Source: Novacetimonas hansenii JCM 7643 (lineage in GTDB: Bacteria > Pseudomonadota > Alphaproteobacteria > Acetobacterales > Acetobacteraceae). Taken from it: a DNA stretch of 64,000 bases. Within the stretch, counting starts at the first letter, position 1. Each line of letters starts with the position of its first letter. Where the stretch lies: assembly GCF_000964405.1 (NCBI RefSeq), contig NZ_BANE01000050.1, positions 1 to 64,000 on the forward strand. The letters run 5' to 3'. The notes beneath the pieces were generated by a model. That model searched no databases, was not told the origin of the DNA, and was given only the letters and a program-made list of their open reading frames with translations. The position numbers were made by a program, and so were the translations under genes. Below are positions 19,238-35,301 of the stretch, one piece after another.

Positions 19238-19899
19238 GGCTTTTCTACCTTGATCTCACCCCTGCGGATGGCCTGCTCCACAAAACGTCCCGTTTCCGTC
19301 GGTGACGCCAGCATCCACAGATCATATATATCCAAACTCGTATCGATATCGAATCCAAACCCCGGAAAATCCATCACTGTGTGGGACAGGCCATGGCTGC
19401 ACGCGAGCTGCCTGTGCCGATGCAGACTGTGTATGCCGAAATGAGGCACCATGACGTCTGGACCGCGTAACAACAGTCCATTTGTACCAATCCCGTCCCG
19501 CGCGGCCAGGATGGCAACCTGCATCGCACTGGCCGCAGACAGCACGGCCTGCACCTCACCTGATGTCAGCAGGGGAATATCGGCAGGCAGGATCAGCGCG
19601 GCATCCCCCCCCTGTTCCGCAATACGGCATGCGGCCTGCCGGGCAACCCGGTTGTAATCAGTGGGCGTGGGTTCAGCCATGATTTCGACCCCGTACCGAC
19701 GCCCGATGCGGGTGATTTCCACATCTGGTGTCGGTACCATGATCCCCTCAAGCCCTGGTGCGTGCAGCAGGGCTGTCAGCACATCTTCGAACATGATCAG
19801 GGCCAGTTGCCGACGCATCCTGTCGGACATCACCGGGGCAAGCCGGCTTTTTGAAAAATGTGTGTCCTTGATTGGTACGATGGCCCATATCCCCGTCAT
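19222..19899 (-). CDS. cofC: 2-phospho-lactate (or 3-phosphoglycerate) guanylyltransferase
   Basis: About 225 residues. CofC activates a phospho-hydroxy acid (2-phospho-L-lactate, PEP or 3-phosphoglycerate) with GTP to give the donor for the F420 side chain. The sequence starts WAIVPIKDTHFSKSRLAPVMS, the nucleotidyltransferase motif of the family, and has LILPADIPLLT, the metal-binding Asp segment. The start at 19899 lies one base after the cofD stop (TGA-C-ATG). Which acceptor is used cannot be read directly, but see the finding about the missing dehydro-F420 reductase. Confidence 0.9.
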   Translation of the reverse strand: MTGIWAIVPIKDTHFSKSRLAPVMSDRMRRQLALIMFEDVLTALLHAPGLEGIMVPTPDVEITRIGRRYGVEIMAEPTPTDYNRVARQAACRIAEQGGDAALILPADIPLLTSGEVQAVLSAASAMQVAILAARDGIGTNGLLLRGPDVMVPHFGIHSLHRHRQLACSHGLSHTVMDFPGFGFDIDTSLDIYDLWMLASPTETGRFVEQAIRRGEIKVEKPCQVM

Positions 19900-19900
19900 G

Positions 19901-20866
19901 TCACCCGTTCCTGCCCATGGCCTGCGCCAGTTGGCACACATGCCGGGCCAGCGCCACACGATCCTCCAGCGTGGTCATCAGCGTTTGCGCCGTTACACAG
20001 GGCACATCAATGTCATGACGCAATGCCGCATCCGTTTCATCAAGTACGAACAGATCGACAAAATCGGCATAATGCCGCGCGACAGATGCTGCACTGACCT
20101 CCAGCCCCAGTTCAGCCATCAATTTCGCGGTCGGTCCCTTCACCGCCTTTCCGGCAATCACGGGGGATACGGCAATGACCGGTGCGGGCGATTGTCGCAA
20201 TGCGTCACGCAGGCCAGGCACGGCAAGGATCGGATCAATGCTCAGAAAAGGATTGGAGGGACACAGGATAATCCCCGCCAGCGCCGGATCAGACAGACCG
20301 GCCAGGATCTCCGGGTGGGGCTGGACCGCGCCGATGCTTTCGAAGGCAATCCCCGTCGCAACCGGGATGCAGCGTTCACGCACGAAATAGGTCTGGAAAT
20401 CCAACCGTCCTTCGCTGGTATCAAGAAAAGTTCGCAGGGGGGCATCACTGGCGGGCAGCAAGGTGCAACCTACGCCCATCCGGCGCGTGATGTCGGCCAT
20501 GATCGCCGACAATCCCTCCCCACGGTGCAGGCGGCGGGTCCGCTCCACATGCAGCGCCAGATCCCCATCCCCCAGCAGAAACCAGGCATCATCCCCGATC
20601 TGGCGCAGGACCTGCATGAAGGTCCATGTCTCATCACGACGCCCCCATCCCTGCACAGGATTTGCAACGCCGGACAATGTGTAAAGCAGGGTGTCAAAGT
20701 CAGGGCAGATATAAAGCCCGAGATGTTCAAAGTCATCGCCAATATTGGCAATGATACACAGATCCTCCGGTGGCAGGGCATGATATAGCCCAAGTGCGAG
20801 CTTGGCGCCCCCGACACCGCCTGAAATTGCCAGGAACCTGCGTCCTGCAACATGGTCATATGTCAT
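19901..20866 (-). CDS. cofD: FO phospholactyl transferase
   Basis: About 321 residues. CofD moves the phospho-acyl moiety from the CofC product onto FO, giving F420-0 or a variant. Family features are the N-terminal FLAISGGVGGAKLALGL, NIGDDFEHLGLYICPDFDT and LCPSNPFLSIDPIL. The ATG at 20866 overlaps the cofE stop as ATGA, so the operon is translationally coupled; an upstream start at 20914 would overlap cofE by 50 bp. Confidence is high because all family blocks are present. Confidence 0.93.
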   Translation of the reverse strand: MTYDHVAGRRFLAISGGVGGAKLALGLYHALPPEDLCIIANIGDDFEHLGLYICPDFDTLLYTLSGVANPVQGWGRRDETWTFMQVLRQIGDDAWFLLGDGDLALHVERTRRLHRGEGLSAIMADITRRMGVGCTLLPASDAPLRTFLDTSEGRLDFQTYFVRERCIPVATGIAFESIGAVQPHPEILAGLSDPALAGIILCPSNPFLSIDPILAVPGLRDALRQSPAPVIAVSPVIAGKAVKGPTAKLMAELGLEVSAASVARHYADFVDLFVLDETDAALRHDIDVPCVTAQTLMTTLEDRVALARHVCQLAQAMGRNG

Positions 20867-21633
20867 CGGAACCGATCCTCCGCAAGCGGACGCACAAGTG
20901 CGCGGGCATTGCATTCCGGCACGTCCCAGGCATATCCGCGGATCAGCACAGCCGGTTGCCGCTGTGCCGCCTGCCCCATCAGCAGGGATGCCGCGGCGGC
21001 GATTTCATCGCCCAGTCCCACGACGGTGCTGTGCAGGACACGACCATTCATATCGCATTCCCCGCGAAGGTCCTGCACGGCAGGAAACCCTGCCGCCCCC
21101 AGGCACACCCCGACGGTGCCCTGTCGCCATGGGCGACCGAAACTGTCATTGACCAGCACCGCGATACGACACCCGGTGCGGGCATACAGGGCATCCGCTA
21201 CCCTGCGTGCACTTTCATCAGGGTCAACAGGCAGCAACAAGGCGCATGCCTGCCCATCGGGGCTGCTGACATTGGACTGGTCTATGCCTGCATTCGCCAT
21301 GACAAATCCCAATCGATGCTCAAGGATCAGCAATCCCGGCAGCGCCCGCACGACACGCGCCGATTCCGCAAGCGCAAGAGTGACAAGCCGCGGATCTTTC
21401 TTGACGCGGTGCGCCAGGTCGCGGGCTTCGGGCGTGACAGTCACCTCATCAAGGAGGACAACGCGACCTTCCGCCTTAGAGACGATTTTCTGGGCCAACA
21501 CGATGATATCACCATGCTGCAACACCTGCCCCATCTGATCCAGCGCATCCATGACAATCCGCGCCAGGTCATCCCCTTTGCGCACGTCGGGAATGCCAGG
21601 CAGGGCAATGGCGGTGTACTGTGCGGTATTCAT
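20863..21633 (-). CDS. cofE: Coenzyme F420-0:L-glutamate ligase
   Basis: 256 residues, the length of stand-alone CofE. It adds the gamma-linked glutamate tail to F420-0 with GTP. Seen are GDIIVLAQKIVSKAEG, NAGIDQSNV and NDSFGRPWRQGTVGVCLG, the conserved CofE blocks. It lacks the C-terminal nitroreductase-like (dehydro-F420-0 reductase) domain of mycobacterial FbiB. The ATG at 21633 overlaps the fgd stop as ATGA. Confidence 0.93.
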   Translation of the reverse strand: MNTAQYTAIALPGIPDVRKGDDLARIVMDALDQMGQVLQHGDIIVLAQKIVSKAEGRVVLLDEVTVTPEARDLAHRVKKDPRLVTLALAESARVVRALPGLLILEHRLGFVMANAGIDQSNVSSPDGQACALLLPVDPDESARRVADALYARTGCRIAVLVNDSFGRPWRQGTVGVCLGAAGFPAVQDLRGECDMNGRVLHSTVVGLGDEIAAAASLLMGQAAQRQPAVLIRGYAWDVPECNARALVRPLAEDRFR

Positions 21634-22640
21634 GCCGCCCCGAACCGTCGCCGCAGGCGCGGAAGGATCTCTTTCGCATACAGCGACAGGAAACGCTGCT
21701 GGTCCGGGCCGGGAGCATGAAACACCAGATGGTTGAAACCACGCCTGATGTAAGCTGCAACCTGTTCCACATGTTCCTCTGGATCGGCAGAGACCTGCCA
21801 CCGGGCGGCCGCGCGCTCCAGCGGGAGCGCGCGGGCCAGTTCCTCCATTTCCATGGGGTCGGCCACCGAATGCTTTTCCTCGGCGGACAGAGCCAGCGCT
21901 GCCCAATGGCGCGTGGCCTCCCGCGCGGCCTTGATGTCCGTATCGAATGACACCTTCATCTCGATCATCCGGCCATAACCGCTGGTCGCGCCCTCCCGCC
22001 GTGACAGGCCCTGTTCAATATTTGGAATGATCTTTTCATCATAAAATGCGGGTTCCTTTCCGCTGGTACAGATGAACCCGTCCCCCATATACCCGGCATA
22101 ACGCGCGACAAGCGGGCCGCCCGCTGCGACATAGACAGGGGGTGCGACATCTGGCCGGTCATACAGGGTGGCGTTCCGGGTATGATAATACTGCCCGTCA
22201 AAAGTGACCCGCTCCTGCGTCCACAAGGCACGCATAAGATCGACGGCCTCACGCAGGCGGGCAAAACGTTCGCGGAATTCCGGCCATGCAATACCTGTCG
22301 CCGGGACCTCGTTCAGGGATTCACCCGTTCCGACCCCGACGATGAAGCGGTCGGGAAACATGACCCCCAACGTCGCGAACGCCTGCGCCACCATAGCCGG
22401 GTGATAGCGGAATGTAGGGGTCAGAACACTGGTGCCCAGCACGATCCTGTCGGTGCGGGCCGCAGCCGCGCCAAGCCATGATAGCGAGAATGGCGCATGC
22501 CCGTCCGTATGCTTCCACGGCTGGAAATGATCGCTGATGAAAACGGAATCAAACCCCGCCTCCTCCGCCGCGCAGGCAAGTGCCAGCAGTTGTGTGGGCG
22601 AAAACTGTTCTGCCGAAGCCTTGTAACCAAACCTGAGCAT
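21630..22640 (-). CDS. fgd: F420-dependent glucose-6-phosphate dehydrogenase
   Basis: 336 residues, LLM fold. It should oxidise glucose-6-phosphate while reducing F420 to F420H2. It matches mycobacterial Fgd1 almost block for block (GYKASAEQF, SDHFQPWKH, LGTSVLTPTFRY, GVGTGESLNE). By counting, Asp37, His38, Trp42 and Glu107 correspond to the active-site residues Asp39, His40, Trp44 and Glu109 of M. tuberculosis Fgd1. Lys195, Lys256 and Arg280 correspond to its phosphate-binding Lys198, Lys259 and Arg283. The ATG at 22640 is preceded by GGGGG at 4-8 bases. It lies 35 bp after fbiC, so F420 synthesis and reduction are co-expressed. Confidence 0.92.
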   Translation of the reverse strand: MLRFGYKASAEQFSPTQLLALACAAEEAGFDSVFISDHFQPWKHTDGHAPFSLSWLGAAAARTDRIVLGTSVLTPTFRYHPAMVAQAFATLGVMFPDRFIVGVGTGESLNEVPATGIAWPEFRERFARLREAVDLMRALWTQERVTFDGQYYHTRNATLYDRPDVAPPVYVAAGGPLVARYAGYMGDGFICTSGKEPAFYDEKIIPNIEQGLSRREGATSGYGRMIEMKVSFDTDIKAAREATRHWAALALSAEEKHSVADPMEMEELARALPLERAAARWQVSADPEEHVEQVAAYIRRGFNHLVFHAPGPDQQRFLSLYAKEILPRLRRRFGAA

Positions 22641-22675
22641 TATACCCCCATCCCGATCGGGATAACGTTTGCTTG

Positions 22676-25078
22676 CTAGAAATGATCCCTGCGTTTTTTC
22701 CACGGTGTCTGCACCCTGGCCTCCAATGGGCGCGCCTGCATGCTGCAGGCCCGGCGTTCTTCGTGTACCGCCTGATACAATGTCGTACGCTGCTGGGGCA
22801 GCCGCCCCGATGCCACGATTACGTCTTCCATCTGCGCCGGGCTGAACTCCTGCCCATGCACGGCGCCAGCAGCACGCGAGATGCTCTCATCCATCAATGT
22901 CCCGCCCAGGTCATTCGCCCCGCACGACAACAACCGCCCGATCCCCGGCGCGCCAAGCTTGACCCATGATGCCTGGATATTGGGGATTGAGAAATTCAGC
23001 ACCAGCCGCGCGACCGCATGCATCAGGACCACTTCGCGCCAGGTCGGCCCGATGCGCGATTCACCGCGCAGGAACATCGGGGCCTCCATATGTACGAAAG
23101 GAAGGCAGACGAACTCGGTAAATCCCCCTGTCCTGCCTTGCAGGTCACGCAGGTGCAGCAGGTGCGCGGCCCAACTGTGGGGGGATTCGATATGGCCGAA
23201 CATGATCGTGGACGTGGTGCGCAGCCCGACCGCATGCGCGGCCTCCACCACCTCCAGCCATCCGCGCGTTCCCAGCTTACCGGGGGCAAGGCGCTCACGC
23301 ACCCCATCATCAAGGATCTCGGCCGCTGTCCCTGGCAAGGACCCCAGGCCAGCTTCCTGAAGGCGTTCGAGATATGTTGTCAGCGATACACCGGCCAGCC
23401 GGGCGCCATGCGCGATCTCCAGCGGGGAAAATGCATGGACATGCAGCCCGGGTGCTGCCTGCCGGACCGTACGCAACAACTGCATATAGGTCTGATGTGT
23501 GTAATCAGGGCTGATCCCGCCCTGCATGCACACCTCCGTTGCCCCGCGTTCCCATGCCTCACGCGCGCGTCGTGCAACTTCTTCCAACGCAAGGTCATAA
23601 GGCGCACCGCGCAGATGTTCATGTGTCTTCCCCTTTGAAAACGCACAAAAACGGCAGGAAAGCCCACATACATTGGTATAATTGATGTTACGGGTCACGA
23701 CATAGCGCACAACATCACCACAGGTCGTACGCCGCAGGTCATCGGCCGCGATGCGTACGGCCTCGACCTCATCCCCACGGGCCTGGAACAGGCGCACGAT
23801 CTCCGCATGCCCCAACCTGTCACCATGCATCGCACGCCCAAGGATGAACTGCAGGTCACGCCCGACATTGTTCCCGCCCATGGCGGGCGCGGGCAGACCG
23901 ACATCCAGGCCGGGGCTCCAGCCATCCGTCCGCGCGAAACCTTCCGCATCCATGTTGCGCCGTACCATCGCATGCAGCGCCGGATCGACCCACCGTTCCA
24001 GATCCTGCGCATACCGGGGATAAATCGGCAGGCGCTGCGCCAGTTCCAGCCCGTATTCACGGCAGGCACGGGCCAGTTGCGCTACCTGTGGCCATGGTGC
24101 CTCGGGATTGACATGATCCGCCGTCACGGGCGAAATGCCGCCCCAGTCAGAAATGCCACTTTCGAGGATACGGGGAAACACGGCATAGGACAGATTGGGG
24201 GGCACCTGTATGCTCACCTCATCATCCATGATACGCCGCGCCATGGCTGCGGTCCACAACAGGTCGTCAAGATCCGGCTCTGCGCACCCATGCATACGCG
24301 TCTCAGCCTTGGCACGGAAATTCTGGACGATGATTTCCTGAATATGGCCGTATTTACGGTGAAGATCACGCAAGGCAAGAAGCGCGTCGATACGTTCGAG
24401 GCGTGTCTCCCCGATCCCGATCAGTATCCCGCTGGTAAAGGGAATAGCCTGTTCCCCCGCCTCGGCGATCATGGCAAGACGGATTTCGGGGCGTTTGTCC
24501 GGCGCCCCGAAATGCGGTCCCCCACGTTCACACAACCGCGTCGCCGTACTTTCCAGCATGATCCCTTGCGAGATACTGACCGCACGCAGGCGCTGCATTT
24601 CTTCTTTGGATAATATTCCCGCATTTACATGCGGCATCAGCCCTGTCTGCCGCATGATGGCGTCACAGACATGCACCAGATAATCAACCGTGGAGTCAAA
24701 ACCCATCCGCGCCAGCGCCTCGCGTGCGACGTGATACCGGCTTTCCGGTCGATCCCCCAGCGTCAACAGGGCCTCGTGACAGCCGGCATCCCGCCCGGCC
24801 CCTGCGATCGCCAATACCTCCTCGACCGAGAGATACGGCGCGGGCACATCCACCGGGCGCGCGGCGAAAGTGCAATACCCGCACTGATCGCGGCATAGTC
24901 GTGTCAGTGGAATAAAAACCTTGCGCGAATAAGTCACGACACGACCGGACAGCGATCGCGCACGGGCGAATGCCCCTGCATGCAAGGACTGTGCCGACAT
25001 GCCCTGTACTTCACGCAGGAGGGCTTGCGCCTGTGCATGATGTTCCGGGGCGTATTGCGTCGTTTCAAATATGGCCAT
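22676..25078 (-). CDS. fbiC: FO synthase, fused CofG-CofH
   Basis: About 800 residues with two radical SAM domains, which make the deazaflavin FO from tyrosine and a ribityl-pyrimidine intermediate of riboflavin synthesis. The CofG half has its [4Fe-4S] motif at Cys62, Cys66, Cys69 (CRDQCGYC). The CofH half has Cys471, Cys475, Cys478 (CGLSCRFC). The fusion is typical of actinobacteria and of bacteria that probably obtained the genes from them. The ATG at 25078 opens MAIFETTQ; upstream starts lack support. It is the first gene of the F420 operon. Confidence 0.94.
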   Translation of the reverse strand: MAIFETTQYAPEHHAQAQALLREVQGMSAQSLHAGAFARARSLSGRVVTYSRKVFIPLTRLCRDQCGYCTFAARPVDVPAPYLSVEEVLAIAGAGRDAGCHEALLTLGDRPESRYHVAREALARMGFDSTVDYLVHVCDAIMRQTGLMPHVNAGILSKEEMQRLRAVSISQGIMLESTATRLCERGGPHFGAPDKRPEIRLAMIAEAGEQAIPFTSGILIGIGETRLERIDALLALRDLHRKYGHIQEIIVQNFRAKAETRMHGCAEPDLDDLLWTAAMARRIMDDEVSIQVPPNLSYAVFPRILESGISDWGGISPVTADHVNPEAPWPQVAQLARACREYGLELAQRLPIYPRYAQDLERWVDPALHAMVRRNMDAEGFARTDGWSPGLDVGLPAPAMGGNNVGRDLQFILGRAMHGDRLGHAEIVRLFQARGDEVEAVRIAADDLRRTTCGDVVRYVVTRNINYTNVCGLSCRFCAFSKGKTHEHLRGAPYDLALEEVARRAREAWERGATEVCMQGGISPDYTHQTYMQLLRTVRQAAPGLHVHAFSPLEIAHGARLAGVSLTTYLERLQEAGLGSLPGTAAEILDDGVRERLAPGKLGTRGWLEVVEAAHAVGLRTTSTIMFGHIESPHSWAAHLLHLRDLQGRTGGFTEFVCLPFVHMEAPMFLRGESRIGPTWREVVLMHAVARLVLNFSIPNIQASWVKLGAPGIGRLLSCGANDLGGTLMDESISRAAGAVHGQEFSPAQMEDVIVASGRLPQQRTTLYQAVHEERRACSMQARPLEARVQTPWKKRRDHF

Positions 25079-25155
25079 CACATTGCCCCACGATACACAC
25101 CTGTTGCGATACATCCGTAACGAAAGCAGGATACCAACCAGAACCAGAAACAAAA

Positions 25156-25174
25156 TGTTCTATATAACGGAACA
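25156..25174. promoter_or_regulatory. IclR-type operator near fbiC
   Basis: TGTTCTATATAACGGAACA: arms TGTTC/GAACA separated by 9 bases, 78 bases upstream of the fbiC start. It agrees at 12 of 19 positions with the site at 25278-25296, including the whole ACGGAACA/GCGGAACA side apart from one base. Confidence 0.45.
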
Positions 25175-25277
25175 AAAAACGCGATTTTGTTATTTTCGTG
25201 AAATAACTTAAACAATGAATTGACAAGAAAGCAAGTCTCAATTCATCATCGAAACGTGTTCAAGGAAACATATTGTT

Positions 25278-25296
25278 TATTCCGCTCAGCGGAACA
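25278..25296. promoter_or_regulatory. IclR-type operator TTCCGC-N3-GCGGAA
   Basis: TATTCCGCTCAGCGGAACA contains the perfect inverted repeat TTCCGC-TCA-GCGGAA. GTTCCGC/GCGGAAC palindromes are the classical binding sites of many IclR-family regulators. It lies about 40 bases upstream of the PLP-enzyme start, on the opposite side of the divergent promoter region from the 25156 site. Confidence 0.6.
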
Positions 25297-25334
25297 GATT
25301 TATTCTTGTGAACCCTGATATCGGGAACGCACGC

Positions 25335-26606
25335 ATGCCTGACACTTATGCCACGGGATTAAGATGCCTGCGATGTGGCACACCCTACCCCCTGCGCGAC
25401 AGCCTCGACGGATGCACCCGTTGCACGGGGAGCCTCGCGGCTGGCCTGGAAGTTACATATAACCCGGCCCTGACGGCGCCACGTCCGTGTATACCACAGG
25501 GACGCGGCCTGTGGCGATATGGCCCCATGCTGCCGGTCGCGGCGCAACAGGCCGTTACCCTTGGCGAAGGGGGAACGCCACTGCTTGCGCTGGACAGGAC
25601 AGCAGAAGCACTTGGGCTTGCGACATTGCTGCTCAAGGATGAAACGCGCAACCCAACCGGATCGTTCAAGGACCGGCTGGCCTGCGTGGGGGTGTCCTAT
25701 GCCAGGGCATCGGGCAGATCCGTTATCGTCTCAAGCTCCTCGGGCAATGCTGGGGCATCCGCTGCCGCCTACGCCGCCAGGGCGGGGATGCCCTGCGTGA
25801 TTTTCACAACACCCGACGCACCACGCAACATGATGACACAGATGCGCGCTCTTGGCGGGATTGTCCTTGTCACTGCACATGCCGACGACCGACTTGCCCT
25901 CCTGCGGCAGGGCGTCACGCGGATGGGCTGGTTTGCAATCTCCCCTTTCTGCATGCCGGTGACAGGCAGCAACCCCATCGCGATTGAGGGATACAAGAGC
26001 ATCGCATATGAAATCGCCGAAGACATGGGCTGGGACATTCCGGAATGGGTTGTACTCCCTGTCTGTTATGGCGACGCGCTTTCGATGATCTGGCGCGGGT
26101 TCAAGGAAATGCTTGAAATGGGGTGGACCCGGCGCTTGCCACGCATGGTCGCGGCGGAAAGCTCTGGCTCCCTATGTCATGCCATGGAAACAGGGGCGCA
26201 ATATACAACCGCCACGCGCCAGAACAGAAGGTCGATCGCGACATCCATCGGGACCGACCGTGGCACGTTCCAGTCACTTCATACCTTGCGGCAAAGCCAA
26301 GGGATCGCGGTCAAGGTCGAGGATTCCAGCATGCTGCAATGGCAGGACAGGATTTCACAAACAGAAGGTTCCTGGCTTGAAATTTCTTCTGCCGCTGCAT
26401 TTTCCGCTGTGGAAAATCTGGTACGCGCAGGCACGATTTCCGCGCATGACCGCGTGGTCGTACTGGGCACCGCGAGTGGTATGAAAACACCCTCCCCCCC
26501 ACCCATCGCCATGCTGGATTCCGCCATCCTCGACGATGCCCTTGATACGGCACGCGATGTCTATGGCGTGGATCTGGCCTCACTTCATACAGGGCATGGC
26601 GCATGA
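25335..26606 (+). CDS. Threonine-synthase-like PLP enzyme with zinc ribbon
   Basis: About 423 residues of fold-type II PLP enzyme. An N-terminal Cys4 zinc ribbon (Cys11, Cys14, Cys27, Cys30) is followed by the PLP lysine Lys112 in NPTGSFKDR and the phosphate-binding SSSSGNAG. The family includes threonine synthase and various lyases and dehydratases. No hom or thrB is nearby. It is divergent from fbiC and 36 bp before hyuA, so a role in the linked catabolic module is likelier than housekeeping threonine synthesis. The ATG at 25335 has GGGAA upstream; a GTG at 25308 is possible. Confidence 0.82.
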   Translation: MPDTYATGLRCLRCGTPYPLRDSLDGCTRCTGSLAAGLEVTYNPALTAPRPCIPQGRGLWRYGPMLPVAAQQAVTLGEGGTPLLALDRTAEALGLATLLLKDETRNPTGSFKDRLACVGVSYARASGRSVIVSSSSGNAGASAAAYAARAGMPCVIFTTPDAPRNMMTQMRALGGIVLVTAHADDRLALLRQGVTRMGWFAISPFCMPVTGSNPIAIEGYKSIAYEIAEDMGWDIPEWVVLPVCYGDALSMIWRGFKEMLEMGWTRRLPRMVAAESSGSLCHAMETGAQYTTATRQNRRSIATSIGTDRGTFQSLHTLRQSQGIAVKVEDSSMLQWQDRISQTEGSWLEISSAAAFSAVENLVRAGTISAHDRVVVLGTASGMKTPSPPPIAMLDSAILDDALDTARDVYGVDLASLHTGHGA

Positions 26607-26642
26607 CCATGCCGGACACCCAGAATTCAGTCAGGGAATATC

Positions 26643-28721
26643 ATGCGCACTCCGAAACTTTCCGTTGATATAGGCGGGACTTTTACCGACCTTGTATTAA
26701 GCGTGGGGGACAGGGTCCACACGCGCAAGGTACTGACAACCCCCGCAATGCCCGATGATGCGTTCCTCCAGGGGATGGACCTGATCCTGCACGATGCAGA
26801 TGTGGGATATAATGACTTATCCCTCATCATCCATGGCACGACGCTTGCCACCAATGCGCTGATTGAACGCAAGGGCGCACGGTGCGCCATGCTCGTGACA
26901 GAGGGTTTTCGTGATTCTGTTGAAATGGCCTATGAAAACCGTTTCGAACAGTACGATATCCTGATGGAACGGCCACCGCCGCTGGTACCGCGTCACCTGC
27001 GCCTGCCGATCCGTGAACGGCTGGGGCCTGCGGGCCAGGTCATAACGCCACTGGACGAAGACGCCATCATTGCCGCCATTGACGTCTTTCGGCGCCACGA
27101 TATCCAGAGCGTGGCAATATGTTTCCTGCATTCCTATGCCAACCTTGTCCATGAAAAACGGGCACGCGAAATTCTCCAATCCCATGCGCCCGACCTTTCC
27201 ATCACGATGTCGGGACAGGTCTCGCCCGAAATCCGGGAATACGAACGCTGGTCCACCGCCTGTGCGAATGCCTATGTGCAACCGGTGATGGACACCTATC
27301 TCGGGCGCCTTGAAACCCGGCTGCATGAACGGGGCGTCATGGCGCCCCTGTTCATGGTGACCTCATCAGGCAGCCTCGCCACATGCGCGCATGCGCGTCA
27401 CTTTCCGATCAGGCTGGTGGAATCCGGGCCTGCCGGTGGGGCTGTACTGGCCGTGGCACTGGCCGCGCATTATGGCCTGCCGGAAATCGTATCATTCGAC
27501 ATGGGAGGGACGACGGCAAAAATCTGCCTGATTGACAATAACCAGCCCCTCTTTTCACGTTTTTTCGAGGTCGCGCGCCATTACCGCCACCTGAAGGGAA
27601 GCGGGCTTCCCATCCGCATTCCTGTCATAGACATGGTGGAAATCGGGGCAGGCGGCGGTTCCGTCGCGACAGTGGACGCGATGAAACGTATCCAGGTCGG
27701 GCCGCAAAGCATGGGATCAACCCCAGGTCCGGCCTGTTATGGTCGCGGTGGGACATGCGGGACGGTCACGGACGCCAACGTGGTCTGTGGACGCATTCGT
27801 GCCGAAACCTTCGCCGGGGGCAGCATGAAGCTCGATACGACTGCGGCACAGTCGGCCCTTGTTGATGCCGTGGGCATGATCACGGGTCAGTCCCCTGCGG
27901 CGGCAGCCAGTTCCGTTATCGAGATTGTCGAGGAATCAATGGCCAATGCCGCGCGTGTACACGCCATGGAAAAAGGTTGTGACCTGACATCACGCACCAT
28001 GATCGCGTTCGGGGGCGCCGCCCCCCTGCATGCGTCGCGGCTGGCGGAAAAACTTGGTATCCGACAGGTTATTGTCCCAACGGGCGCGGGCGTAGGATCG
28101 GCGATCGGCTTTCTGCTGACCCCGATCGCCTGTGACATCGCGCGCACCCATCTGCTGACGCTGGATGCAACCTCCGGGCTGGGTGCCCTTGAACGCCTGC
28201 ATCAGGGCATGCTTGATGAAGCGCATGCTGTCATCGGCCCGGCGATACGCGGTGATCTCAACAGGCTGGAAGCCCGTTGGGTTGCTGACATGCGCTATCA
28301 CGGGCAGGGGCATGAAGTGCAGGTACACATCCCGCCCACGCGGATACGCGACCCAGATACCCTGCGCACCTTGTTCGAGGCAGCATACGCCCGGCAGTTC
28401 GGGCGGACCATCCCCAACCTTGCGGTACAGATAACGGGATGGACGTTGCGGCTGAGTGCGCCGGTTGATGCCCGGCTGCCCCCGCCATCGGGCATTCCCA
28501 CCACGGGCACGGCGCAACCGGTCATGGGCAGGATCATTGCCCCCGGCACGTCACGACAGATCGATGTCGCCATATACCAGCGCGCGGAACTGCCGGTTAC
28601 GACCACCGTCAATGGCCCGGCCCTGATTGTGGAAGATGAAACGACAACTTTTGTATCCGCCTGCTTTGGCGCGACAATAAATGAACTGGGCCATATCGTC
28701 ATGACAAGGATCGAGGCATGA
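26643..28721 (+). CDS. hyuA: Hydantoinase/oxoprolinase family protein, A subunit
   Basis: 692 residues. HyuA carries the ATP-binding fold of ATP-dependent N-methylhydantoinase, 5-oxoprolinase and the acetone carboxylase family. Visible are DIGGTFTDLVL at residues 9-19, TTLATNALIERKG, the second phosphate motif SFDMGGTTAK, and GPACYGRGG. With HyuB it should cleave a cyclic or activated amide using ATP. RBS AGGGAA precedes the ATG. It follows the PLP-enzyme gene by 36 bp and overlaps hyuB by ATGA. Confidence 0.92.
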   Translation: MRTPKLSVDIGGTFTDLVLSVGDRVHTRKVLTTPAMPDDAFLQGMDLILHDADVGYNDLSLIIHGTTLATNALIERKGARCAMLVTEGFRDSVEMAYENRFEQYDILMERPPPLVPRHLRLPIRERLGPAGQVITPLDEDAIIAAIDVFRRHDIQSVAICFLHSYANLVHEKRAREILQSHAPDLSITMSGQVSPEIREYERWSTACANAYVQPVMDTYLGRLETRLHERGVMAPLFMVTSSGSLATCAHARHFPIRLVESGPAGGAVLAVALAAHYGLPEIVSFDMGGTTAKICLIDNNQPLFSRFFEVARHYRHLKGSGLPIRIPVIDMVEIGAGGGSVATVDAMKRIQVGPQSMGSTPGPACYGRGGTCGTVTDANVVCGRIRAETFAGGSMKLDTTAAQSALVDAVGMITGQSPAAAASSVIEIVEESMANAARVHAMEKGCDLTSRTMIAFGGAAPLHASRLAEKLGIRQVIVPTGAGVGSAIGFLLTPIACDIARTHLLTLDATSGLGALERLHQGMLDEAHAVIGPAIRGDLNRLEARWVADMRYHGQGHEVQVHIPPTRIRDPDTLRTLFEAAYARQFGRTIPNLAVQITGWTLRLSAPVDARLPPPSGIPTTGTAQPVMGRIIAPGTSRQIDVAIYQRAELPVTTTVNGPALIVEDETTTFVSACFGATINELGHIVMTRIEA

Positions 28722-30499
28722 CCAGCCAGGATAAGAACACGCCCCCCCCGCCGACGGACGGCCTGGAACGTATCGGGTTACAGGTCATGTGGGACCGCCT
28801 GCTGTCGGTCGTGGAGGAACAGGCATTGATGCTGGTGCGAACAGGGTTCAGCACCTCCACCCGTGAAGCAGGCGATGTGTCCGCAGGGATTTTCGATGTG
28901 CAGGGGCGCATGATCGCCCAGGCCGTGACCGGAACCCCGGGCCATGTCAATTCGATGGCACGCGCGATCCGGCATTTCATCGACTGCTTCCCCGTCGCCA
29001 CAATGCGGGAGGGGGATACGTTCATTACCAACGACCCGTGGAAAGGTACCGGGCATCTTCATGACTTTACCGTTCTGACACCAATTTTCCGCGCAGCGAA
29101 AGTCGTGGCGATGGCGGCCAGCACCTGCCATGTGATCGACATTGGCGGTCGCGGCATGGGACCAGAAGGCCGCACCATTTTTGAAGAGGGCCTTTTTGTA
29201 CCGATCCGTTATCTGACCCGGGGGGGAGAGGTCGACCAGACCCTGATGGACCTCATCCACTGTAACGTGCGTGAACCCGAACAGGTGGTGGGCGATGTCT
29301 ATTCCCTGATGGGATGCAATACAGTGGCCCAGCAGCGTTTCGTACAGATGCTTGATGAATTCCACCTTGATGACATCGAAATGCTTTCGGAACACATCAT
29401 CAACACGTCGCGCCTTGCCATGCTGGATGCGATACGCGCCCTGCCCCCTGGCCGCAGCCATTACGAGATGTATTCCGACGGATATGACCTGCCCATAAGG
29501 ATCCGCGCGACCCTCAGCATCGAAACCGATGGGATCTGTGTCGATTTCGCAGGGTCGTCCCCTCCGTCGCGTTTCGGTATCAACGTCCCGTTCTGCTATA
29601 CGGAGGCTTATGCCAGTTTTGGCGTGAAATGCATGGTCGCCCCCAGGGTCCCGAACAATGCGGGCTCGCTGGAGGTGATACGCATCTGCGCGCCCGAAGA
29701 TTCGATCCTTAACGCCCCTTATCCATTACCAGTCGCAACACGGCATATCATAGGACAGCTCCTGCCTGACGTCGTCATCGGGTGCCTGTCACAGATCCTT
29801 GGTCCGACTGCCGTACCGGCGGAAGGCACATCATGCCTGTGGAACCTGATTGCCTCTGGCGGCGCAGGGATGGTGGATGTCGCCCCTGCAGAGCTTGCAA
29901 ATGCACGGACATTCAATGTGATGTCATTCCATTCAGGCGGGACCGGCGCACGACCCGGCCGCGACGGCCTGTCCGCCACCGCATTCCCAAGCGGGGTACG
30001 CAACGTGCCGGTGGAAATTACGGAATCCATGTCACCAATCCTGATCCATTCCAAGGAATACCGGACCGATTCCGGGGGGGCGGGCGAATTCCGGGGGGGG
30101 CTGGGACAGGTCATGGAAGTCTCCAGCACCGAGCACAGCCCCTTTACCCTGAGCGCGAATTTCGACCGCGTCCTTCACCCGCCACGTGGGCGTGCGGGTG
30201 GAATGGATGGGTTGGCCGGGCGGCTGGTGCTGGGCGATTCCACGCCCCTGCGTGGCAAGGGGCGCCAGGTTATCCCGGCAGGCATGCACCTGACCATCAA
30301 GATGCCCGGCGGCGGCGGGATCGGTGATCCCACGCGACGGTGCCCCGAACGCGTGGCACACGATGTCAGGAATGGCCTGGTTTCCCCCCGATGTGCCGTC
30401 ACGCTTTATGGCGTCATACTTGATGCCAATGAACAGGTTGATCTTGACGCAACATATCGACATCGTAATGGCATGGCCAAGGCAGGAACACGAACATGA
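28718..30499 (+). CDS. hyuB: Hydantoinase/oxoprolinase family protein, B subunit
   Basis: 593 residues with the HyuB blocks SAGIFDVQGRMIAQAVTGTPGHVNSM, TNDPWKGTGHLHDF, the Asp/Gly-rich GGAGEFRGGLG and HPPRGRAGG near the C-terminus. It pairs with the upstream HyuA; both subunits are needed for activity in the family. The gene has long homopolymers (C8 at 28742-28749, G7 at 30074-30080, G8 at 30093-30100) but is intact as read. Start and stop overlap its neighbours by ATGA on both sides. Confidence 0.92.
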   Translation: MTSQDKNTPPPPTDGLERIGLQVMWDRLLSVVEEQALMLVRTGFSTSTREAGDVSAGIFDVQGRMIAQAVTGTPGHVNSMARAIRHFIDCFPVATMREGDTFITNDPWKGTGHLHDFTVLTPIFRAAKVVAMAASTCHVIDIGGRGMGPEGRTIFEEGLFVPIRYLTRGGEVDQTLMDLIHCNVREPEQVVGDVYSLMGCNTVAQQRFVQMLDEFHLDDIEMLSEHIINTSRLAMLDAIRALPPGRSHYEMYSDGYDLPIRIRATLSIETDGICVDFAGSSPPSRFGINVPFCYTEAYASFGVKCMVAPRVPNNAGSLEVIRICAPEDSILNAPYPLPVATRHIIGQLLPDVVIGCLSQILGPTAVPAEGTSCLWNLIASGGAGMVDVAPAELANARTFNVMSFHSGGTGARPGRDGLSATAFPSGVRNVPVEITESMSPILIHSKEYRTDSGGAGEFRGGLGQVMEVSSTEHSPFTLSANFDRVLHPPRGRAGGMDGLAGRLVLGDSTPLRGKGRQVIPAGMHLTIKMPGGGGIGDPTRRCPERVAHDVRNGLVSPRCAVTLYGVILDANEQVDLDATYRHRNGMAKAGTRT

Positions 30500-31506
30500 C
30501 CGCACTCGTCAGTGTCGGCCTCCCGACCGGGATGGAGGGGCTGACCTTCCCCATCCCATTTTCCGACCCGTCAACGCTGCTACGGATTGCAAAACATGCC
30601 GAGGCCCTCGGCTATCATTCCGTGTGGGGCAATGACCACATGACGACCCAGAATTATGTGCGGTCGGAATTCCCCACGCCGCCACGTTTTTGGGAGCCCT
30701 TGATAACCTATGCATGGCTGGCCGCGCAGACCACGACGCTACGCTTTGGCACGGGCATCCTTGTCCTGCCGATGCGTCGTGACATTGTGGTGACAGCCAA
30801 ACAGATCGCAACCCTGGACCACATGTCAGGCGGCCGGCTTGAAATCGGCGTGGGCGTCGGTGCCTACCGGGAGGAGTTCAACGCCCTGTGGCCAGATGCC
30901 AAGGTGCATCGTGGCGAGATGGTTGAAGAGGGCGTACGCGCCCTGCGCGAATTGTTTAATGAACGTGAGGCAAGCTTTCAGGGTAAATACTATCATTTTC
31001 GCGATGTCGAGTTCTTTCCCAAACCATTGCAACCCGACCTGCCGCTATATTTTGGTGGCAATTCGGTGCAGCACCTGCAACGTGTGGCGCGGTGGGGCAA
31101 CGGATGGATCCCCGCCGGCATGCCTGCGGGGCAGCTTGGCAACATGGTTTCCATGCTGCGTGACTATACCGCGGCGGAAGGTCGAGACCCCGACACGATC
31201 GCCATTGCCCCGCAATTCGTCGCCTATGTCGCCAGGACGGACGAGGAAGCGATTGCAAAATACCAGCAAAGCCAGATGCACAAACACCTGATGTCGCTGC
31301 GTTCATCCACCCTGAAGGGACAGTCCGCCACAGGGATGGAGGACATCAACCTTGTCGGTAGCGTGGAGACCGTGGTGGCCAAGATGCATAGGCTGATAGC
31401 CGCCGGGGTAACCCATTTCCTTGGTCTGTATTTTGCCGCAAGTTCGCCCGACGAATTATGTGAACAGATGCAGATTTTCGCCGAACAGGTCATCCCGGAG
31501 TTATGA
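30496..31506 (+). CDS. LLM-class F420-dependent oxidoreductase
   Basis: 336 residues of the luciferase-like (TIM barrel) family, closest in style to the TIGR03619-type F420 enzymes: LLRIAKHAEALGYHSVWGNDHM, RFGTGILVLPMRRDIVVTAKQIATLDHMSGGRLEIGVGVG, and YFGGNSVQHLQRVARWGNGW. It would reduce or oxidise a substrate with F420H2/F420. Family assignment alone does not exclude FMN, but complete F420 synthesis genes next door make F420 likely. It is coupled to hyuB by ATGA. Confidence 0.87.
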   Translation: MTALVSVGLPTGMEGLTFPIPFSDPSTLLRIAKHAEALGYHSVWGNDHMTTQNYVRSEFPTPPRFWEPLITYAWLAAQTTTLRFGTGILVLPMRRDIVVTAKQIATLDHMSGGRLEIGVGVGAYREEFNALWPDAKVHRGEMVEEGVRALRELFNEREASFQGKYYHFRDVEFFPKPLQPDLPLYFGGNSVQHLQRVARWGNGWIPAGMPAGQLGNMVSMLRDYTAAEGRDPDTIAIAPQFVAYVARTDEEAIAKYQQSQMHKHLMSLRSSTLKGQSATGMEDINLVGSVETVVAKMHRLIAAGVTHFLGLYFAASSPDELCEQMQIFAEQVIPEL

Positions 31507-31510
31507 CGGA

Positions 31511-32479
31511 ATGAAACTCAGCCTGTCGTCCGATGGGGCGACACCTCCCGCCGACCTGACGCAACTGGCCCTTGCGGCGGATGAATGCGGCCTGGCGCGT
31601 TATTGGATGGCATCGCACCTGTTCCAGCGCGAACCCATCGTCAACAGCACCATGGCGTTGCAGCAGACGCGACGGCTGGGTATCGCGCTGATGGCCATGA
31701 GTCCCTACACCGTTCACCCGGTCTATGCCACGATGGCGGCGGCTGCGCTGGATGAATGGTTTCCCGGCCGTGTGGTCCTGTGCTTTGGCACGGGATCACC
31801 ACGCGACCTTGAATCCATATCCATGCAGGCGGCCCGTCCGTTGCAGACCATGCGTGAGACCATCGAGATCGCCCGCCGGCTTCTTGATGGCGGCAACGTT
31901 ACTTATGCGGGCCAATGTTTCACGATCGCCGGTCGTACCCTTTCCGCCCGGCCGCACGATATTCCCATCATGGTGGCCGCGTCAGGGCCACGCATGCTTG
32001 AACTGGCCGGGGCACAGGCCGATGGCGTACTGATCAGTGCGGGCACTTCACCACAATTCATCGCCCGTGCGCTTGATCACGTCAGGGCGGGCGAGGCACG
32101 CAGTGGACGGACGGTGTATAAATCGGCACTCGTTTACACCGCCGTCGCCCCCGATGGTGACGAAGCCCGCCAGCAGGTCCGCCGCGCTCTGGCCTTTGTC
32201 CTGCGTGGGGAACATCATCGCGAAAACCTTGCCTGCGCGGGCAGCACCCTGGACCAGAATGCATTACGCGAAGCCTATGCCGCATGCGACTGGGCACGGG
32301 TGGACGACCTGATTGACGATCGCATTATCGCCAACCATGCCGCTGCAGGCACGGCAAGGGAAGTCCGTACCGCCATCGACGCCTACCGGGATATAGGGCT
32401 TGACGAACTTGTCCTGTCATCGCTCCGCTTTCCCGACGAACTGCGGCAAATCATCGCCCCTCCTGCCCCTACCGCCTGA
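31511..32479 (+). CDS. LLM-class oxidoreductase, methylene-H4MPT reductase-like
   Basis: 322 residues, luciferase-like fold: LAADECGLARYWMASHLFQREP, SPYTVHPVYATMAAAALDEWFPGRVVLCFGTGSP, and IPIMVAASGPRMLELAGAQADGVLISAGTSP. This resembles the 5,10-methylenetetrahydromethanopterin reductase (Mer) branch, which uses F420. The ATG at 31511, 5 bases after the previous stop with GGAG upstream, is preferred. Two different LLM enzymes in one operon may act in sequence on one substrate or as alternative activities. Confidence 0.85.
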   Translation: MKLSLSSDGATPPADLTQLALAADECGLARYWMASHLFQREPIVNSTMALQQTRRLGIALMAMSPYTVHPVYATMAAAALDEWFPGRVVLCFGTGSPRDLESISMQAARPLQTMRETIEIARRLLDGGNVTYAGQCFTIAGRTLSARPHDIPIMVAASGPRMLELAGAQADGVLISAGTSPQFIARALDHVRAGEARSGRTVYKSALVYTAVAPDGDEARQQVRRALAFVLRGEHHRENLACAGSTLDQNALREAYAACDWARVDDLIDDRIIANHAAAGTAREVRTAIDAYRDIGLDELVLSSLRFPDELRQIIAPPAPTA

Positions 32480-32504
32480 CCGGCCCCTTCCCGAGGATAG
32501 CTGC

Positions 32505-33794
32505 ATGAACACCGCCCCCCTTTCCCCCAGCGGGACAGCACATCGCACATGGCGTCCCGGCATGTTCTGGCAGGTTGTCATCGGCAGCGTGCTGGGCCTG
32601 GGGCTCGGGGTGATCGACCCTGCCCTCGCCATGCAGACACGTTGGGTCACGGACATTTTCCTGCGCCTGATCGTGATGGCCGTGGGGCCTTTGCTGTTCT
32701 GCATCGTGACGATGGGCATTGTGGGGGCTGGCTCCCTGCGCAACGTCGGGCGTCTTGGGGCGAAAGCCCTGCTCTATTTCGAGGGCATGACCACATTCGT
32801 GCTTCTTGGCTCGGTCGGGGTGGCCATGCTGCTCCAGCCCGGCAGGACCATTGTCTTTACCCCGACGGACGAAGACACCCGCATGGTGGCGTCTTATGCG
32901 CATAATGCCAGCCTCCTGCATGATGGTGGCATTACGGGGTTCATCGTATCACTGGTCCCACATTCGCCCGCCGACGCCTTTGCCCAGGCCAACATCTTGC
33001 AAATCCTGTTCTTTGCGATCCTGTTTGGATGCTGCCTCAGCCTGATCGGCCCGGCGGGAACGCCGCTTGTGCATCTGCTGGAGGCCCTTTCCACCCTGTT
33101 TTCACGCATGATGCGCGTTATCATCTCGCTTGCCCCGCTGGGGGTCTTTGGCGCGATGGCAACGACAACCGCACGCTATGGCATAAATGCGATCATGCAC
33201 CTGGCGGCATTCGTCGGGCTGTACTATCTTGTCATCATCGTGTTCCTGACCGTGGTGCTGGGCGGCTGCCTGCGGATGGCAGGGGTCAGGCCTTTGCGTT
33301 TTGCACGCTACTTCCGCGAAGAACTGGCCATCACCTTCACGACCACCACATCTGATGCGGTGCTACCCAGTGTCATGGCAAAACTGGAACGGCTGGGTGT
33401 ATCCTCACAGGTTGTCGGGATTGTGGTTCCGGCGGGATATTCCTTTAACCTTGACGCCCTGTCGATCTACCTCGGGCTTGCGGTGATCTTCCTTGCGCAG
33501 GCAACGGGAACGCACCTGAGCTTCTGGCAGATGGCCATCATGCTGACGGCGGCACTGTTTACATCCAAGGGTGCACATGGTGTGCCCGGCATCGCGATCG
33601 TAGTGCTGGCCGCAACCCTGCAGGCCATGCCCTCCATCCCGCTCGCCAGCCTGACCATGTTACTGGCGGTGGATTGGTTTATCGGGATTGCCCGTGCCGT
33701 GGGCAACCTGGCGGGGAACTGCGTCGCCCCGGTCATTATCGGTGCGTGGGAAGGCAAGCTGGACCGTGAAAAAATGGCACGCGAACTTGGATAG
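32505..33794 (+). CDS. Dicarboxylate/amino acid:cation symporter (DAACS family)
   Basis: About 429 residues with the family's serine/threonine-rich hairpin (TTTTSDAVLP), the SFNLDALSIY motif that corresponds to the usual NxDG region, and VDWFIGIARAVGNLAGN near the end. It would take up a C4-dicarboxylate or acidic amino acid with Na+ or H+. GAGG lies 9 bases before the ATG. As the last gene of the hyuAB-LLM-LLM operon it is a candidate importer of the substrate or exporter of the product; family homologues are nearly always importers. Confidence 0.87.
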   Translation: MNTAPLSPSGTAHRTWRPGMFWQVVIGSVLGLGLGVIDPALAMQTRWVTDIFLRLIVMAVGPLLFCIVTMGIVGAGSLRNVGRLGAKALLYFEGMTTFVLLGSVGVAMLLQPGRTIVFTPTDEDTRMVASYAHNASLLHDGGITGFIVSLVPHSPADAFAQANILQILFFAILFGCCLSLIGPAGTPLVHLLEALSTLFSRMMRVIISLAPLGVFGAMATTTARYGINAIMHLAAFVGLYYLVIIVFLTVVLGGCLRMAGVRPLRFARYFREELAITFTTTTSDAVLPSVMAKLERLGVSSQVVGIVVPAGYSFNLDALSIYLGLAVIFLAQATGTHLSFWQMAIMLTAALFTSKGAHGVPGIAIVVLAATLQAMPSIPLASLTMLLAVDWFIGIARAVGNLAGNCVAPVIIGAWEGKLDREKMARELG

Positions 33795-33890
33795 GCACGG
33801 GCCGGAAATGGCGGGACAAGCCAGTTAGGGCAGATCATGTTTGGATGCGTGCATTCAAACAGGTGAAGATGCGCGTAAAAACAATAAACC

Positions 33891-33930
33891 GGAGCATTTT
33901 CACCGAACCGGTTTTCGATGGAAATGCTCC
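33891..33930. repeat. Nested inverted repeat
   Basis: GGAGCATTT and AAATGCTCC are perfect 9-bp arms enclosing 22 bases whose centre is the palindrome AACCGGTT. It lies about 100 bases after the symporter stop. It could act as a transcription terminator for the hyu operon or be a mobile repeat; there is no T tract. Confidence 0.45.
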
Positions 33931-34256
33931 AGACAGCAGGCTTTTAGCCCTGCGCCCCTTCGTCCGCCCCGGACACAGGGATTACAAGTGCGGGCTTGCG
34001 CATGAATCACCCACATCATCTTTCGTGCGTCCCGGCCACACCGGATGGCATCTCACCGACATTCAGAGACCGTTCAAAAACAACCCATTGATAAGCAAAG
34101 GGAACATTCCAGACGTTATCTTATCCCTTGATAAAGCGATACCTCTCAAAACTTTTGGCAGAAGCATCACAAAAACTTTTATAATCCCAGTATGTTATCA
34201 GACCCATATTTTTCAACAGTCCCTTACATGCCTGCCTGCTATCTTTTTGGGGCATC

Positions 34257-34265: not shown

Positions 34266-34273
34266 GATGCTCC

Positions 34274-35188
34274 ATGGTTGATCGTCTGAACCTTGACCGA
34301 CTGTTTGTCGCCATTCTGGAGACGGGAAGTTTTGTCGCCGCATCTGAACGCATCGGCGTCAGCAGCGGGCAGGCATCCAAGATGCTGTCCCGCCTGGAAT
34401 CCGAACTGGGCGTACAACTGATACAGCGGACGACGCGCGCACTGTCCCCAACGGAAATCGGGCAGGCCTATTACGAGCGGATCAAGGTCATCCTCGCACA
34501 ACGCGACGACCTGGATGCTTCCATACGTAATATCTCCGGCACTCCATCAGGACGGTTGCGAATCACCGCGCCAATGTCATTTGGCAATATCCAGTTGATG
34601 CCTGCCCTGCTTGCCTTTGCGGACCGCTACTCCAGCATTCGTCTCGACGTCAGTTTTTCGGATCACCTGGCTGACCTTGTGGAGGATGGCTTTGATCTTG
34701 CCGTGCGCATCGGGCGGCTTTCCGACAGCAGTCTGATCGCACGCAGGTTATGCGACACCCGGATCGTTACCGTCGCCTCGCCCGGGTACCTTGCGATACA
34801 CGGCGTCCCAACCCACCCGGACGAACTGTCACGCCATGCCTGTATCATCGATACCAATTTTCGAACGCCCAACATCTGGTCCTTCTGCAACCCGACTTCG
34901 CGTCAGCCTATGTCAGTGCCCATCTCGGGGAGGATTGCATTTTCAAACGGTGAAGCCTGCATGACTGCCGCGGAACGGGGGTTGGGCATCGCATGCCTGC
35001 CAAGCTTCATCGCTGGTCCCGGAATTTACAAAGGCACGCTGGTTACGCTTCTGCGCGATGCTGAACCACCTGCGCTTGGTGTTCACGCACTATATCCTTC
35101 AGCACGCCATCTTGCCTTAAAGGTCCGCGTACTATCAGATTTTCTTGCCGATCACTTCAAGGGCAAAGCAGAATGGGATATGCACTAA
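34274..35188 (+). CDS. LysR-family transcriptional regulator
   Basis: 304 residues. The N-terminal HTH reads LDRLFVAILETGSFVAASERIGVSSGQASKMLSRLESELGVQLIQRTTRA, followed by a type 2 periplasmic-binding effector domain. The N-terminus matches the normal LysR start, so the ATG at 34274 is right despite lacking an RBS. Its target is unknown; the neighbours are the hyu/LLM operon upstream and YceI convergent. Confidence 0.88.
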   Translation: MVDRLNLDRLFVAILETGSFVAASERIGVSSGQASKMLSRLESELGVQLIQRTTRALSPTEIGQAYYERIKVILAQRDDLDASIRNISGTPSGRLRITAPMSFGNIQLMPALLAFADRYSSIRLDVSFSDHLADLVEDGFDLAVRIGRLSDSSLIARRLCDTRIVTVASPGYLAIHGVPTHPDELSRHACIIDTNFRTPNIWSFCNPTSRQPMSVPISGRIAFSNGEACMTAAERGLGIACLPSFIAGPGIYKGTLVTLLRDAEPPALGVHALYPSARHLALKVRVLSDFLADHFKGKAEWDMH

Positions 35189-35210
35189 CCACAAGCAACC
35201 TTCCACAAAG

Positions 35211-35279: not shown

Positions 35280-35301
35280 CGATGCAGGGAGATGCAAAAC
35301 G

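Follow-up and report, generated by a model that had tools for sequence, protein, structure and literature searches.

The described system whose logic comes closest to that of the gene cluster analyzed here is the reductive uric acid pathway, which in Escherichia coli involves XdhD, YgfK, SsnA, HyuA, YgeW, YgeY and YgeX (PMC12507026, accessible portion). The cluster lies in a 64,000-nucleotide stretch of the Novacetimonas hansenii JCM 7643 genome (contig NZ_BANE01000050.1, positions 1 to 64,000; hereafter the window), where a pyridoxal phosphate (PLP) enzyme, hyuA, hyuB, two oxidoreductases of the luciferase-like monooxygenase (LLM) family, called LLM1 and LLM2 below, and a symporter form one operon beside genes for synthesis of the rare cofactor F420. 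As far as the accessible portion of PMC12507026 goes, a molybdenum enzyme (in variant B of the cluster only, see below), reductive dearomatization, opening of a hydantoin-type ring and a PLP lyase of family PF00291 would be common to both, but other enzyme families are used: HyuA and SsnA of the uric acid pathway are PF01979 amidohydrolases, whereas the window cluster has an ATP-dependent HyuAB pair (PF01968/PF02538), a threonine-synthase-like PLP enzyme and two LLM enzymes. The same portion predicts an F420 LLM enzyme version of the uric acid pathway in Chloroflexota. No PF01979 match was found among the 10 operon-region proteins scanned, and no molybdenum enzyme of the xanthine dehydrogenase type among the window genes scanned from 17966 to 35188. 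When tested as the diaminopropionate ammonia-lyase YgeX, the PLP enzyme contained PF00291 but scored 39.6 bits on NF006058, against 276.

Hydride transfer from F420H2 to an aromatic ring during aerobic catabolism has a precedent in the F420-dependent picrate degradation of Nocardioides and Rhodococcus, where Fno serves as the F420 reducer. That system is actinobacterial and its substrate is a nitrophenol, and we know of no HyuAB or PLP enzyme in it. The role of LLM enzymes in picrate reduction is named in the available part of a 2021 review (PMC8498797). With the ATP-dependent lactamase family (caprolactamase CapAB, N-methylhydantoinase and 5-oxoprolinase; PMC8453981, available part) the window proteins have the ATP motifs of HyuA and the metal site of HyuB in common. 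They differ in that hyuAB share an operon with LLM enzymes, and against caprolactamase they score 459.5 and 177.1, below the equivalog cut-off of 1000. The nearest solved relative of LLM2 is Mer, the F420-dependent methylene-tetrahydromethanopterin reductase, but LLM2 reaches 156.5 bits where the Mer cut-off is 276, and no methanopterin gene was recognized in the operon. Searches of an open-access library turned up no account of the steps proposed below as one pathway and no description of the gene set, in line with the initial annotation, which knew of none.

The six genes of the operon all lie on one strand, with spacings of 36, −4, −4, +4 and +25 bp (Table 1). Open reading frames and protein families agree with the six-gene operon, divergent from the F420 genes, that had been drawn from the letters alone; the earlier start of the PLP gene, 25335, is the first ATG and is in the same frame as 25308. 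To the earlier gene list we add a major facilitator superfamily (MFS) gene and the gene of an IclR regulator, both of which adjoin the F420 genes. That the cluster exists, recurs and is linked to F420 is established, whereas its chemistry is proposed by reasoning. From the genes present, their intact catalytic motifs, their recurrence and their co-occurrence with F420 synthesis we derive the reading that we favor and consider somewhat probable, namely a catabolic module that would open a nitrogen heterocycle reductively through uptake, ring reduction by F420H2, ATP-dependent opening and cleavage by the PLP enzyme.

To begin with recurrence, an alignment of five LLM2 proteins was run against a collection with one genome per species (84,980 species) and returned 66 loci, which are numbered with an L below. 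By record title, 56 of them are from Alphaproteobacteria, six are unspecified (Proteobacteria, Pseudomonadota or 'bacterium'), three are from Betaproteobacteria/Burkholderiales and one is a metagenome bin named Klebsiella. Counts refer to genes seen in the stretch around LLM2, up to 10 kb a side and often less; genes were called by a codon-usage script, with some joined or missed, and the family label of each recurring neighbor was checked with Pfam on a single representative. Near LLM2, 63 of the 66 loci have an LLM1-like gene (best match 43% or more) and 55 have the PLP gene, so that the association is not a matter of chance. In 65 loci, LLM2 and one of these two genes share a strand and are no more than 400 bp apart. 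hyuB was seen in 29 loci and hyuA in 27, and LLM1, the PLP gene, LLM2 and hyuA or hyuB occurred together in 25. An F420 gene (cof, Fno, or the glucose-6-phosphate dehydrogenase gene FGD at no less than 55%) was near LLM2 in 19 loci, 14 of which are among the 36 that span at least 19 kb; FGD accounts for five of the 19 and Fno for six, and L106, L109 and L116 were not counted because the FGD query there matched other LLM enzymes at 34–40%. The whole set, including an F420 gene in the surrounding stretch, was found in four loci (L082, L114, L121 and L130), and genome G184 has the parts in three adjoining stretches, where cofD and the PLP gene are ∼28 kb apart. Synteny in other genomes, on which the initial annotation had made its proposal depend, is thus present, with module genes recurring across the 66 LLM2 loci.

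The symporter, which had been counted as part of the gene set, belongs to the operon by position. No relative over the thresholds was found in any of the 66 other LLM2 loci, however, and by these searches it is outside the conserved set. The protein falls within the SDF family itself and below the NCBIfam cut-offs for DctA (476.2 versus 570 and 441.2 versus 513). Many of the 66 loci carry Liv-type ABC or Tct-type transporters. A relative of the LysR regulator that follows the operon was likewise over thresholds in none of the 66 loci. hyuA, for its part, is a widespread gene whose presence is no sign of the module: among 20 hyuA neighborhoods only two (L039 and L043) hold LLM1 with other module genes, and the other 18, which are simply the remainder once the module-holders are set aside and not an independent control, are without LLM1, LLM2, cof and FGD. 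In a draw of 385 genomes of the class, no more than three genomes other than that of the window had LLM2 relatives of at least 47% identity, the next being at 37% or less. When a plasmid collection was searched with LLM2, all matches were remote LLM enzymes with identities not above 32%.

The loci fall into several arrangements. Variant A has the order Liv-type ABC transporter, hyuA, hyuB, LLM1, PLP enzyme, LLM2 and IclR, with cof genes next in some loci. Variant B starts with an M24-family protein, the PLP enzyme, a Tct-type transporter and a three-subunit molybdenum hydroxylase with CoxG, continues with LLM2, a second LLM1 type (LLM1b) and a flavin-reductase-like protein (PF01613), and ends in hyuA-hyuB in Ferrovibrio-type genomes or in Fno, cofE and cofD in others. 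The one Fno (NADPH:F420 reductase) tested scored 195 bits on TIGR01915, whose cut-off is 149.8. Variant C consists of the PLP enzyme, LLM2 and LLM1b, convergent with LLM1a, hyuB, hyuA and Liv genes. Variants A and B occur in tandem on contig DLGP01000071 (L082, L098), and Roseomonas sp. MO-31 (L121) has Liv genes, LLM1, the PLP enzyme, LLM2, hyuA, hyuB, cofE, cofD, cofC and cofGH in one run. The large subunit of the molybdenum hydroxylase was seen in 14 of the 66 loci; its nearest solved chains are those of 4-hydroxybenzoyl-CoA reductase, CO dehydrogenase and nicotinate dehydrogenase, a likeness that does not settle which substrate it takes. L073, L078, L097 and L100 have a RidA-like gene near LLM2. 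Runs of extra LLM genes stand beside the module in L039 (13671–19625), L071, L105, L112 and L141, some of which are titled Enhydrobacter or Rhodospirillales. In three metagenome bins of Acetobacteraceae/Rhodospirillales (L135, L136 and L137), LLM2-LLM1b follow two conserved genes, one of the UGSC family (PF24696) and one without a Pfam match, at the place taken by the PLP gene in other loci.

The F420 link made in the initial annotation is supported by both gene neighborhood and genome content. cofD was over its cut-off in 59 of 62 LLM2 genomes (48/50 plus 11/12), the three misses (L088, L104 and L135) all being metagenome assemblies by title, and in 58 of the 385 genomes of an even draw of the class. 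Three such draws of 385 were taken as the same genomes because their labels agree. Within the class draw, all 8 genomes that matched LLM1 at 1e-40 had cofD, even though identity to LLM1 was as low as 34–37% in four of them, and cofD was present in 10 of 11 with an LLM2 homologue at 1e-30, the miss being a 63% complete genome. Hypergeometric p values, which treat genomes as independent though they are related, were 2e-7 for LLM1 with cofD and 3e-8 for LLM2 with cofD (1e-6 and 2e-7 without the window's genome). Most cofD genomes of the class (48 of 58), on the other hand, gave no LLM2 match at 1e-30, indicating that F420 has other uses in the class. In the window itself, the IclR regulator at the far end of the F420 genes is 34–35% identical (down to 2e-45) to the IclR adjoining LLM2 in variant-A loci L081–L084, L087 and L088. 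Based on this likeness, the divergent F420 operon probably belongs with the LLM/hyu operon as one unit.

The known catalytic motifs of HyuAB are intact. Among module proteins retained for residue counts (HyuA above 600 aa, HyuB above 480 aa, both above 45% identity), the ATP motifs DIGGTFTD, DMGGT and PGP (pattern DxGGTxTD, DxGGT, PGP) are kept in 29 of 29 HyuA including that of the window, and the metal ligands D53, H113, D116 and H138 (Asp-His-Asp-His), matched by eye to solved relatives, in 33 of 33 HyuB. In the available part of PMC8453981, HyuA-type ATP motifs are described, and replacing the corresponding motif residues of CapAB by alanine leaves almost no activity or none. A tree was made of 51 HyuB proteins; one supported clade (100/99) takes in 26 of the 33 module rows, that of the window among them, and the window protein pairs with that of Roseomonas MO-31 (99/95). 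The other seven, five of them Ferrovibrio-type (two identical) and two from Roseomonas acroporae (same genome, two sources), fall among non-module proteins. More than one HyuAB lineage therefore appears to have joined LLM2 clusters, and this repeated joining suggests that the activity is wanted there.

Lys121 of the PLP enzyme is kept in 56 of 56 homologues (56 of 60 remained after a length filter of >330 aa). The structural model is nearest to threonine synthases (Z 44–38; best Z 43.8, 2.1 Å, 371 residues) and farther from serine racemases and threonine deaminases (Z ∼33). Threonine synthase itself was rejected on scores (PRK08197, 257.7 versus 303; TIGR00260, 146.1 versus 167.1). The window protein has the loops SSSGNAG and VTGSNPIA where solved threonine synthases have ASTGNTS and VNSVNPxR, loops that we take to bind the substrate phosphate in those enzymes. 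The residue after SGN is A in 43 of the 56 family members and H in 13; these 13 also have H for F in SFKDR. The module PLP family (L078–L143) comes in two types, ∼45–53% and 33–38% identical to the window protein.

Put together, these parts suggest the following route. F420 would be made by the divergent operon and kept reduced by the glucose-6-phosphate dehydrogenase. The symporter, or Liv or Tct transporters elsewhere, would import a small acidic nitrogen heterocycle, and one or both LLM enzymes would then reduce C=C or C=N bonds of its ring, with F420H2 as the hydride donor. The resulting cyclic amide or cyclic urea would be hydrolyzed by HyuA, using ATP, together with the metal site of HyuB. 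The amino acid so formed would be cleaved by the PLP enzyme, probably by elimination. In some relatives a RidA-like protein may handle an enamine. In variant B the molybdenum hydroxylase would first add an oxo group beside the ring nitrogen, so that an unoxidized heteroaromatic compound could serve as the start. Electron flow in the reducing direction, the order of steps and the class of substrate are all inferred. Two kinds of F420-reducing enzyme, FGD and Fno, stand beside some of the clusters and point to a demand for F420H2, which makes it most likely that the LLM enzymes reduce their substrate. Conversion of an imidazole-type acid through a cyclic urea to 2,3-diaminopropionate and on to pyruvate would use every step, but this is a guess and a long shot. 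Hydantoins, 5-oxoproline, picolinate, nicotinate, pyrrole-2-carboxylate and imidazole-4-carboxylate were also considered as substrates, and none gained further support. A bolder version, which we put forward tentatively and with rather less than even confidence, is that the cluster is a dedicated aerobic, reductive route for nitrogen-heteroaromatic acids (molybdenum hydroxylation where required, two ring reductions with F420H2 by separate LLM enzymes, ATP-dependent opening of the saturated lactam or cyclic urea, and elimination by the threonine-synthase-like lyase) and that F420 synthesis in a group of Alphaproteobacteria is in large part explained by it. Taken as a whole, the earlier pathway prediction keeps its F420 link, its cyclic-amide hydrolase and its recurrence in other genomes, and loses the symporter as a conserved part.

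The most serious competing explanation concerns the cofactor of LLM1. Both LLM proteins belong to PF00296, with which the LLM1 model agrees, and the four best solved relatives of LLM2 are all F420-dependent Mer proteins (5e-43 to 3e-39, best 4.7e-43). The solved relatives of LLM1 include FMN as well as F420 enzymes, and its model is as close to the FMN monooxygenase SfnG (Z 33.0) as to F420-dependent Mer (Z 33.4), so the fold cannot tell the cofactor. LLM1 could thus be an FMNH2-dependent monooxygenase that attacks the ring oxidatively in the manner of RutA, leaving LLM2 as the only F420 enzyme and a single reductive step in an oxidative pathway; the flavin-reductase-like gene that follows LLM1b in variant B would suit such an enzyme too. 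We nevertheless regard this as unlikely, given that TIGR03619 is the top family of LLM1 and is over its cut-off, that every class genome with an LLM1 homologue at 1e-40 has cofD, distant homologues included, and that no flavin reductase was recognized in the window operon. LLM1 and LLM2 are both predicted to be F420H2-dependent reductases. The two LLM enzymes might instead oxidize their substrate and reduce F420, as FGD shows LLM enzymes can, or the cluster might be biosynthetic, F420-dependent LLM enzymes being known from natural-product pathways (PMC8498797, available part). IclR regulators and transporters of families that usually serve import are found again and again across the loci, however, FGD and Fno beside some clusters indicate that F420H2 is being supplied, and no nonribosomal peptide or polyketide synthase was recognized by eye among the recurring clusters (no profile scan for them was made), and we consider either version quite improbable. 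The assignment of HyuAB has its own competitor in the ATP-dependent carboxylases of the acetone/acetophenone carboxylase type, which belong to the same superfamily, align with both subunits and, according to the available part of PMC8453981, have metal ligands in common with the hydrolases. Yet the scores of HyuA are 369.9 bits with N-methylhydantoinase, 337.5 with 5-oxoprolinase and only 244.4 with acetophenone carboxylase, the corresponding values for HyuB are 177.3, 147 (a 5-oxoprolinase/hydantoinase entry) and 87, and no extra carboxylase subunit was recognized in the operon. A carboxylase is accordingly very remote in our estimate, and the ATP-dependent cyclic-amide hydrolase named in the initial annotation remains the better supported prediction, with hydantoinase and oxoprolinase as its nearest solved relatives.

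Several further observations weigh against the reading favored here. hyuAB were not seen near LLM2 in 37 of the 66 loci, including 15 of the 36 loci of at least 19 kb, and the surrounding stretch lacks an F420 gene in 47 of 66. The genomes compared are related and so do not count as independent samples. On the HyuB tree the module label needs three changes, which could be a single gain with two losses, and few lineages are represented by the seven outlying rows. The window copy has peculiarities of its own. Neither a molybdenum hydroxylase nor RidA turned up next to its operon, the branch of its HyuB is long (0.82), and its PLP enzyme departs from the family at near-invariant sites (for example A225 in place of the G of 55 of 56 homologues, and T394 in place of the D of 54 of 56). 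The long branch and these departures raise the possibility that the window copy has drifted in function.

The genomic setting of the cluster points to acquisition. Three sister species of the genus are without hyuA matches and cofD, and their LLM matches to LLM2 are only 25–27%. DNA matches to the sisters cover 40–2324 and resume at 36238, with only short matches (up to ∼220 bp) in 2325–19999 and 33800–36237, the parts searched as DNA. G+C content is 56.8% in 2325–36237 and 52.2% to the right. The cluster therefore likely sits on an acquired island of ∼34 kb (2325–36237), judged from sequence comparison; no clean empty site was seen in the sisters, in which the flanks are not adjacent. In the family as a whole, cofD is over its cut-off in 74 of 299 genomes. 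At 2843–16746 there is a second catabolic-looking set with an aldehyde dehydrogenase, an aspartate-dehydrogenase-like protein, a TPP enzyme, a short-chain dehydrogenase/reductase, two cupin proteins, an alpha/beta hydrolase, an MFS protein, a TonB receptor and two IclR regulators. Window DNA from 36000 to 60000 gave short matches in the plasmid collection, the best being to Acetobacter plasmids. The repeat of ∼105–125 bp listed in Table 1 comes directly after the symporter stop. Promoter-like sites in 24900–35300 number three, where 5.4 are expected by chance, and are no better than those in shuffled sequence.

Table 1. Features of the F420/LLM gene cluster and adjoining sequence (window positions)
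Feature	Position	Strand	Basis or remark
IclR-family regulator, likely regulator of the module	17089..17895	-	PF01614/PF09339
MFS transporter, last gene of F420 operon	17966..19237	-	PF07690; start overlaps cofC end
cofC, guanylyltransferase of F420 synthesis	19222..19959	-	PF01983 85.8 bits, cut-off 22
cofD, F420 synthesis	19901..20914	-	PF01933; TIGR01819 275.3 bits, cut-off 257.45
cofE, F420 glutamyl ligase	20863..21633	-	PF01996 240.3 bits; inner ATG, reading frame runs to 21906
Glucose-6-phosphate dehydrogenase (FGD)	21630..22703	-	TIGR03554 478.5 bits, cut-off 420
cofGH (FbiC), FO synthase	22676..25153	-	NF006687 1083.7 bits, cut-off 1018
Divergent promoter region	25154..25307		Sigma-70-like TTGACA-18-CATCAT at 25220-25249 (+), consensus match only
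Threonine-synthase-like PLP enzyme (fold type II), proposed lyase	25308..26606	+	PF00291
hyuA, predicted ATP-binding subunit of ATP-dependent cyclic-amide hydrolase	26643..28721	+	PF05378 and PF01968
hyuB, predicted metal-binding hydrolase subunit	28718..30499	+	PF02538
LLM1, predicted F420H2-dependent LLM reductase	30496..31506	+	PF00296; TIGR03619 203.7 bits, cut-off 166.9
LLM2, Mer-like predicted F420H2-dependent reductase	31511..32479	+	PF00296; start by ATG
SDF-family (DctA/GltP-like) symporter, proposed uptake	32505..33794	+	PF00375 320.7 bits; start by ATG
Dispersed repeat at operon end	33816..33941		Many copies in same genome, mostly 86-96% identical
LysR-family regulator adjoining operon, membership uncertain	34274..35188	+	PF03466/PF00126

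In the available part of the 2021 review (PMC8498797), the reason why Proteobacteria make F420 is listed as unanswered, and no F420-dependent enzyme from bacteria outside Actinobacteria is said to have been studied experimentally by then; structures of an F420-dependent enzyme from a Chloroflexi species have since appeared (9hav). The cluster may help explain why the bacteria that carry it make F420. As a concrete gene set in named cultured strains, among them Rhodopseudomonas palustris 2.1.18, Reyranella soli and Roseomonas acroporae NAR14, it makes the F420 question testable for the carriers among some Alphaproteobacteria, although it cannot be the whole answer, since most cofD genomes of the class draw are without LLM2. 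If the proposed ring chemistry is right, a reductive, low-potential route for nitrogen heterocycles would be added to the repertoire of aerobic bacteria, and the clusters would supply F420 reductases together with partner lactamases that depend on ATP.

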